Shown here one piece after another: positions 35,478 to 36,168 of a stretch of DNA of 37,531 nucleotides. Made by a program: the position numbers and the translations under genes. Source of the stretch: Fidelibacterota bacterium (GTDB lineage: Bacteria; Fidelibacterota; UBA8477); NCBI GenBank assembly GCA_021734045.1, contig JAIPJR010000018.1:1-37531 (forward strand), given 5' to 3'. A model generated the notes under the pieces. That model saw only the letters and a program-made list of their open reading frames with translations, was not told the DNA's origin and did no database searches. Every line of letters begins with the position of its first letter. Position 1 is the first letter of the stretch.

Positions 35478-35551
35478 CGCGGGATGGAGCAGTCTGGTAG
35501 CTCGTTGGGCTCATAACCCAAAGGTCGCAGGTTCGAATCCTGCTCCCGCTA
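35478..35551 (+). tRNA. Initiator tRNA-fMet (CAU anticodon)
   Basis: All arms fold: acceptor CGCGGGA/TCCCGCT, D arm GAGC/GCTC, anticodon arm TTGGG-CTCATAA-CCCAA with CAT at 35512-35514, variable AGGTC, T arm GCAGG-TTCGAAT-CCTGC, discriminator A. Three initiator marks are present: the first pair is mismatched (C1/T72), the anticodon stem ends in three G:C pairs, and the D stem has A11:T24. Thus it is the initiator, not elongator Met or the lysidine Ile tRNA. CCA is not encoded (the next bases are CAA). Its last 16 bases plus CA recur three more times downstream. Confidence 0.97.
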
Positions 35552-35553
35552 CA

Positions 35554-35700
35554 AATGAAAAAGGTCACCAACAGGTGGCCTTTTTTGTTTGTATTGCGTA
35601 ATAGTGAGAACCAGCCAGGTTCGATTCGGAGCACAGCGGAGAAAAGCGAACGAATCCGGTGGATACCGGATGAGGTTCAGCTAATCCTGCTCCCGCTACA
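35554..35700 (+). repeat. Array unit 1
   Basis: 147 bases from after the real tRNA tail to the end of the first copied tail. Carries GGTTCGATTCGGAG, CGAACGAATCC and the ATCCGG-TGGATA-CCGGAT hairpin, then GAGGTTCAGCT directly before the tail. Its terminator matches units 3 and 4. Confidence 0.85.
35558..35586 (+). terminator. tRNA-fMet terminator (unit 1)
   Basis: AAAAAGGTCACC-AACA-GGTGGCCTTTTTT: twelve-pair stem including a T-G wobble, followed by a T run, a few bases after the tRNA 3' end. Confidence 0.93.
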
Positions 35701-35843
35701 ATAACAAAGCCTCCTTTATGGGGGCTTTGTTGTTGTATGGAGTTACGGGTTCAAATCTTTTGGTTCGATTCGGAATGAAGCTGACAGTGTCAGGTTCATG
35801 GAGAAAAGCGATCGTCAGCGAAGCTAATCCTGCTCCCGCTACA
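35701..35843 (+). repeat. Array unit 2 (divergent)
   Basis: 143 bases. Only the tail, the ACGGGTT and GGTTCGATTCGGA segments and GGAGAAAAGCGA are shared with the others. Terminator and second half differ, with its own palindrome CTGACA-G-TGTCAG and a longer GCTGAC...GTCAGC pairing. Confidence 0.8.
35704..35733 (+). terminator. Terminator of unit 2
   Basis: ACAAAGCCTCC-TTTAT-GGGGGCTTTGT: eleven-pair stem with one wobble, then TGTTGT. Same place after the tail as in the other units, but an unrelated sequence and a weaker T tract. Confidence 0.75.
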
Positions 35844-36016
35844 AATGAAAAAGGTCACCAACAGGTGGCCTTTTTTGTTTGTATGGCGTTACGGGTTTGG
35901 GTTGTTGGTTCGATTCGGAGCCCTCCGATCATCTCAAGATTAACTCCGAGGACAAAGACGAGCGAACGAATCCGGTGGAAACCGGATGAGGTTCAGCTAA
36001 TCCTGCTCCCGCTACA
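35844..36016 (+). repeat. Array unit 3
   Basis: 173 bases including its tail. Nearly the same as unit 4, five differences over 152 bases counted by eye, so one of the two arose by recent duplication. Holds CGGAG...CTCCG and TTCGATTCG...CGAACGAA pairings and the ATCCGG/CCGGAT hairpin (35970-35987). Confidence 0.85.
35848..35876 (+). terminator. Terminator of unit 3
   Basis: Identical to the unit 1 terminator: AAAAAGGTCACC-AACA-GGTGGCC and T6. Confidence 0.93.
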
Positions 36017-36168
36017 AAAGAAAAAGGTCACCGACAGGTGGCCTTTTTTGTTTGTATGGCGTTACGGGTTTGGGTTGTTGGTTCGATTCGGAGCCCTCCG
36101 GGCATCTCAAGATTAACTCCGAGGAGAAAGACGAGCGAACGAATCCGGTGGAAACCGGATGAGGTTCA
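36017..36168 (+). repeat. Array unit 4 (no tail)
   Basis: 152 bases matching unit 3 up to GAGGTTCA, after which similarity stops and no tRNA tail follows. This is the downstream border of the array. Confidence 0.85.
36021..36049 (+). terminator. Terminator of unit 4
   Basis: As units 1 and 3, with one change in the loop (GACA for AACA), so pairing is kept. Confidence 0.93.

Follow-up and report, generated by a model that had tools for sequence, protein, structure and literature searches.

A candidate RtT-like array behind an initiator tRNA gene and its relatives bearing the 3' end of the local tRNA

An initiator tRNA gene trailed by copies of its own 3' end

The window analyzed here, a stretch of 37,531 nucleotides from a Fidelibacterota bacterium, makes up the whole of one contig (C87) in a MAG of 2.54 Mb and 119 contigs. 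It contains a tRNA-Met(CAT) gene, called by both ARAGORN and Rfam, which can be read from its sequence as an initiator by virtue of the GGG/CCC anticodon stem and the unpaired positions 1 and 72. The usual state of initiator tRNAs is C1-A72; here U72 faces C1, and the CCA is not encoded. The segment of this tRNA that runs from A58 to the 3' end (AATCCTGCTCCCGCTACA; henceforth the tail) recurs three times downstream on the same strand (Table 1), with spacings of 147, 143, and 173 nt and 0 of 17 positions mismatched in every copy. By our estimate, a 17-mer with up to one mismatch is expected in 600 nt only about 2e-6 times, and a chance origin of these copies is therefore excluded. Every tail is followed by a hairpin and a T-run; terminators 1, 3, and 4 are near-identical (95 to 98%), and terminator 2 is a different hairpin. 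The original prediction of four 18-base tRNA-fMet tails, 143 to 173 bases apart, with terminators and partly conserved bodies, is borne out by these observations, and the array proves to be longer, with a fourth, tail-less body extending it to position 36168 (a 173-nt repeat pair, 97% identical). This last body halts at ...GAGGTTCA, right before the expected next tail, placing the border of the unit at A58. A protein search around the gene upstream of the array returned no viral match.

Table 1. Features of the tRNA-tail array, in coordinates of the window
Feature	Position	Strand	Evidence or remark
Promoter-like site TTGACA-17-TATTTT, ~40 nt 5' of the tRNA	35409..35437	+	10/12 matches; consensus match only
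Initiator tRNA-Met (CAT); A58 tail at 35536-35553	35478..35552	+	ARAGORN, Rfam, sequence
Terminator 1: 17-bp hairpin with T-run	35553..35590	+	
Unit 1 body	35590..35682	+	Held-out models; fold z -3.4
Unit 1 putative anti-tail UGUAuuGCG	35590-35598	+	
Unit 1 helix P1, GAACC/GGTTC	35608-35622	+	
Unit 1 helix P2, TTCG/CGGA	35625-35640	+	
Unit 1 hairpin ATCCGGT/ACCGGAT	35654-35671	+	
Tail copy 1, exact	35683..35700	+	
Terminator 2, hairpin sequence unlike terminators 1, 3, and 4	35702..35732	+	
Unit 2 body, degenerate, P1 lost	35738..35825	+	Fold z -0.8
Tail copy 2, exact	35826..35843	+	
Terminator 3	35845..35880	+	
Unit 3 body, 5' side degenerate, right-hand hairpin retained	35885..35998	+	Fold z -0.4
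Tail copy 3, exact	35999..36016	+	
Terminator 4	36018..36053	+	
Unit 4 body without tail, end ...GAGGTTCA	36054..36168	+	

Sister units in the source genome and its genus

Whether other tRNA genes have such units was a question raised by the original prediction, and in the source genome they indeed lie behind Arg, Asn, Val, and Pro tRNAs. The body of unit 1 recurs 3' of tRNA-Arg(TCT), as two bodies with one extra tail, and again 3' of tRNA-Asn; in both cases the units carry the tail of their own tRNA and not that of tRNA-fMet. A scan of the tRNAs of this genome recovered further tail copies 3' of Val(TAC) and Pro(TGG), with inserts that differ from the body of unit 1 and a break at A58 that is identical. 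In these Val and Pro units, one can still make out the anticodon arm, or even the D-arm, of the tRNA, the T-loop bears a hairpin-rich insert, and the tail always restarts at A58.

Absence from close relatives had been named as an outcome that would tell against the array; comparable units are in fact present in two MAGs of the same genus (Candidatus Marinimicrobia), namely G001 (Candidatus Marinimicrobia bacterium CG1_02_48_14) and G002, where they lie behind Lys, Met, Pro, fMet-type, and Arg tRNAs. Two genomes of a sister family yielded 0 tail copies among the 52 tRNAs checked, and later model searches in the same family recovered units behind fMet (G244) and Pro (G236).

Some of these loci have peculiarities of their own. 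G001 possesses a second fMet-type tail array (L045, on its contig C46) outside the conserved fMet locus; that locus, L047 in this genome, bears a plain terminator and lacks a unit. The Pro-TGG (L015, L083) and Pro-CGG (L027, L146) units are pseudo-tRNA-Pro sequences in which a new perfect hairpin replaces the anticodon arm; these hairpins, TCCGTCGGCTGACGGA and TCCGGCGGTTGCCGGA, are related and one compensatory pair apart.

Relationship to the RtT repeats of E. coli

Until now, RtT has mostly passed for a peculiarity of the E. coli tyrT locus and its relatives. In E. coli MG1655, the units are found 3' of tyrV (GGGGAAGGATGAGAAGCTTCGACYAAGGTTCGRYTYGAGCG...GAGTAATCCTTCCCCCACCACCA) and between tyrT and tyrV (GAGAACCTTCGACTAAGGTTCGATTCGAGCG), and their tail likewise begins at A58. 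A core of the form GAGAACC-n-GGTTCGATTCG-AGC is common to the E. coli units and unit 1 of the window (GAGAACCAGCCAGGTTCGATTCGGAGC). The window array and the tyrT/tyrV repeats (RtT RNA, RF00391, rttR) thus share a same-strand position 3' of a tRNA, a tandem arrangement, the tail from A58, the core GAGAACC-n-GGTTCGA-TTCG-AGC, and a hairpin-rich body. The window array differs in following a tRNA-fMet, in belonging to another phylum, in having a terminator in every unit and no encoded CCA, in its weak or shifted anti-tail (the upstream strand pairing with the tail copy), and in falling under the Rfam cut-off. Indeed, unit 1 attains 16.7 bits full-length against RF00391 at 35582-35701, below the cut-off of 45, and searches of three genomes of the genus with this model gave no significant match, two of the four weak matches overlapping tRNA-Pro genes.

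Two further models, R2 and R3, drew on gammaproteobacterial units, E. coli among them, and contained no Marinimicrobia sequence. R3 ranks positions 35596-35625 above every other site in the window (20.4 bits, E = 0.0019; runner-up 0.66), and all 13 of its matches at E <= 1 in 210 kb of Marinimicrobia loci lie in candidate loci, with 0 among 44 control loci. With the search limited to the array region, R2 scores 35596-35698 at 15 bits; in a larger search it misses the window. The core helix P1 (GAGAACC..GGTTCGA) is present in unit 1 only and lost from units 2 to 4; likewise, unit 1 folds well relative to shuffled sequence (z -3.4), and units 2 (z -0.8) and 3 (z -0.4) fold no better than shuffles. 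The putative closing helix of unit 1 pairs weakly in the usual register, and a candidate helix, UGUAuuGCG:CGCUACA, lies in a shifted one; in the tRNA-Arg unit of the source genome, the helix between anti-tail and tail copy is clear. The repeat unit of the window has both the tail from A58 and the same-strand upstream tRNA by which RtT is recognized. Judged from its sequence, then, unit 1 belongs among the RtT-like elements as a divergent member, not filed as Rfam RtT, and units 2 to 4 look like decaying copies; we call the array RtT-like rather than RtT because its score lies far under the Rfam cut-off and units 2 to 4 are degenerate.

RtT RNA is reported to be set free from the transcript of a tRNA operon and has been tied to amino-acid limitation (PMC4986893). 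Outside E. coli, the RtT family of Pasteurellaceae is likewise found near tRNA genes, and the part of that account available to us does not describe a rule of local tail and anti-tail or any occurrence in other phyla (PMC4986893). A literature search, in which older papers were thinly covered, found no prior account of the local-tail rule.

Distribution across bacteria

A strict core pattern was found in 3 of 369 gammaproteobacterial genomes, with all matches behind a tRNA; across the Marinimicrobia phylum, a pattern of this kind was found in the source genome alone, besides two chance matches in coding sequence. A looser pattern, run on genome contigs, recovered mostly 16S rRNA and coding sequence, and also G001 and Saccharospirillum. 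A covariance model (R1) whose seeds include E. coli tyrT, the window, and other units has matches in 58 of the 369 gammaproteobacterial genomes at E <= 0.05. A same-strand tRNA lies within 900 nt upstream at 53 of 70 inspected R1 loci (25/30 and 28/40), where we estimate about one by chance. Among the other inspected loci, one lies behind a tmRNA, one behind the 3' half of a tRNA-Arg, and a further one in an island-like region with a tmRNA-like tail at its end; several are at contig ends, and about 11, mostly weak, resemble chance matches. The commonest host tRNAs are Gln (both anticodons), Tyr, Ser, Glu, and Arg, and at some Gln and Tyr loci the Rfam RtT model itself passes its cut-off (68.9, 54.4, and 46.9 bits). 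Saccharospirillum sp. MSK14-1 shows the equivalent anatomy 3' of Arg(CCG) and Ser(GGA), and its Gly, Ala, and fMet tRNAs are followed by related tail copies. Plasmids had no match to the element; of two scans of viral contigs, one was empty and the second gave chance matches only, none near a same-strand tRNA, and matches in phages are weak and chiefly to the terminator-like stretch.

RtT-like elements occur 3' of a wide variety of tRNA genes, and of one tmRNA gene, in no fewer than two bacterial phyla, and the 3' end that they carry is invariably that of the local gene. The likeness to tyrT that had been proposed for the window stands, in the A58 break, the core, the place behind a tRNA, and the choice of unit 1 by the held-out models. 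The suggestion of convergence in an unrelated lineage fares less well: it is a weaker reading than relatedness to RtT, and not the best one, because intermediates behind Gln, Tyr, Ser, Glu, Arg, Pro, and fMet tRNAs and tmRNA connect the window and tyrT.

The tmRNA locus (L266, in G293, on the reverse strand) has its RtT-like element directly 3' of the gene, with the tmRNA 3' tail copied and a matching anti-tail. At two other loci (L271, L239), RtT-like elements are parted from a tmRNA or tRNA-Arg by apparent integrated islands, and tail fragments remain.

A covarying six-helix structure

An alignment of 21 complete units, from 20 gammaproteobacterial loci and E. coli, is consistent with a six-helix fold comprising P0 (anti-tail:tail copy), P1 (GAACC:GGTTC), and four more hairpins. 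Across these units, 92.1% of cells are paired and double changes occur in 24 of 36 pairs; the covariation score reaches 0.489, compared with 0.160 (sd 0.011) for shuffles and 0.05 to 0.12 for slid partners, with the qualification that the rows of the alignment are related. P0 follows the local tail, as in GCGCCAGGAT with ATCCTGGCGC, GGACAAGGAT with ATCCTTGTCC, and CCACGGGGAT with ATCCCCGTGG. Its covariation might partly be inherited from the parent tRNA, since the acceptor and T-stem strands of a tRNA are complementary anyway, and P1, being near-invariant, contributes no covariation evidence. The six-helix structure of the gammaproteobacterial units is strongly supported by covariation. Further, G-U mismatches on the sense strand outnumber A-C mismatches by 24:11, where composition predicts 0.59:1; this excess favors a structured sense RNA rather than DNA.

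Possible origins and functions of the array

Taking these findings together, we propose, with a probability of about 0.6, that the window array consists of divergent RtT-like elements, that is, tRNA-derived same-strand modules with the local tail, that give rise to a read-through trailer RNA. Each module holds an exact copy of its tRNA from A58 to the end, and the complete form adds an upstream anti-tail that closes a multibranched RNA. The anatomy, the local-tail rule, and, in the gammaproteobacterial relatives, the covarying six helices are direct observations; for function, a processed trailer RNA dependent on read-through is the most likely candidate, and the array may, as the original prediction also suggested, tune the output of tRNA-fMet. 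Because a strong terminator precedes it, unit 1 would be transcribed by read-through only: RNA polymerase passing terminator 1 would include it in the tRNA trailer, where it could fold on its own, with the tail copy holding the anti-tail and thereby keeping it off the identical tail of the tRNA itself. The tRNA 3'-processing machinery might then release unit 1 as a small stable RNA, comparable to the RtT RNA of E. coli. Units 2 to 4 would be tandem duplicates, probably arising by recombination between identical tails. Several findings weigh against this proposal: the low Rfam score of unit 1, its weak or shifted anti-tail, the failure of units 2 and 3 to outfold shuffles, the strong terminator ahead of unit 1, and a patchy distribution, as in the 52 sister-family tRNAs lacking tail copies.

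The other account of some weight, which we hold possible but doubtful, is that the units are selfish or neutral cassettes spreading among tRNA loci, becoming tandem by recombination between identical tails, and that their ends match simply since units are made from a copy of the local tRNA gene. It would accommodate the interior body common to the fMet, Arg, and Asn units of one genome, the recognizable tRNA arms of the Val and Pro units, the patchy presence among close relatives, and the degenerate copies in the window. Against it stand the strong covariation at nearly every helix, interior included, the sense-strand G-U bias, the plasmids without a match, and phage matches that are weak and mainly to a terminator-like stretch; of these, the interior covariation tells against pure neglect but leaves room for a structured element that is selfish.

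We give little credence to the idea that the tails are scars of tRNA-targeting integrases, each being the attR of an element since lost. Known integrase identity blocks resemble the stretch of a tRNA from A58 to the 3' end, integrase attachment sites likewise directly repeat the tRNA 3' end from the T-loop, and some loci (L271 and L239) seem to hold islands between gene and element. However, the window units, at 143 to 173 nt, have no plausible gene, integrase, or foreign cargo between tails, and a conserved RNA-like body that covaries across phyla, together with a repeated local terminator, is unexpected of unrelated scars. Least probable is an assembly artefact of the MAG: MAG contigs often end near such arrays, but this is unlikely because the copies in the window differ (95 to 98%, with one distinct terminator) and relatives, including isolates such as E. 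coli and Saccharospirillum, bear comparable units.

Returning to the trailer RNA proposed above, a bolder and rather improbable extension would make RtT-like elements a trailer module general to bacteria, sitting 3' of numerous tRNAs and of tmRNA across several phyla and obliged to keep a copy of the host 3' end. The anti-tail might then pair with either the host tail or its copy, and such a folding switch would tie read-through to the maturation of the tRNA. RtT would in any event become one case of a broad class with the rule that each host tRNA has a closing helix recast to match it, raising the question of why a trailer RNA must retain a copy of the 3' end of its tRNA. The covariance models from this analysis allow the RtT-like class to be mapped.

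RtT-like regions can also break assemblies and could be mistaken for tRNA pseudogenes or integration scars. Contigs of G000 and G002 (at L016, L027, L046, and L070) end from a few to about 110 nt past the tRNA gene, a pattern that tail arrays would produce by breaking assembly.
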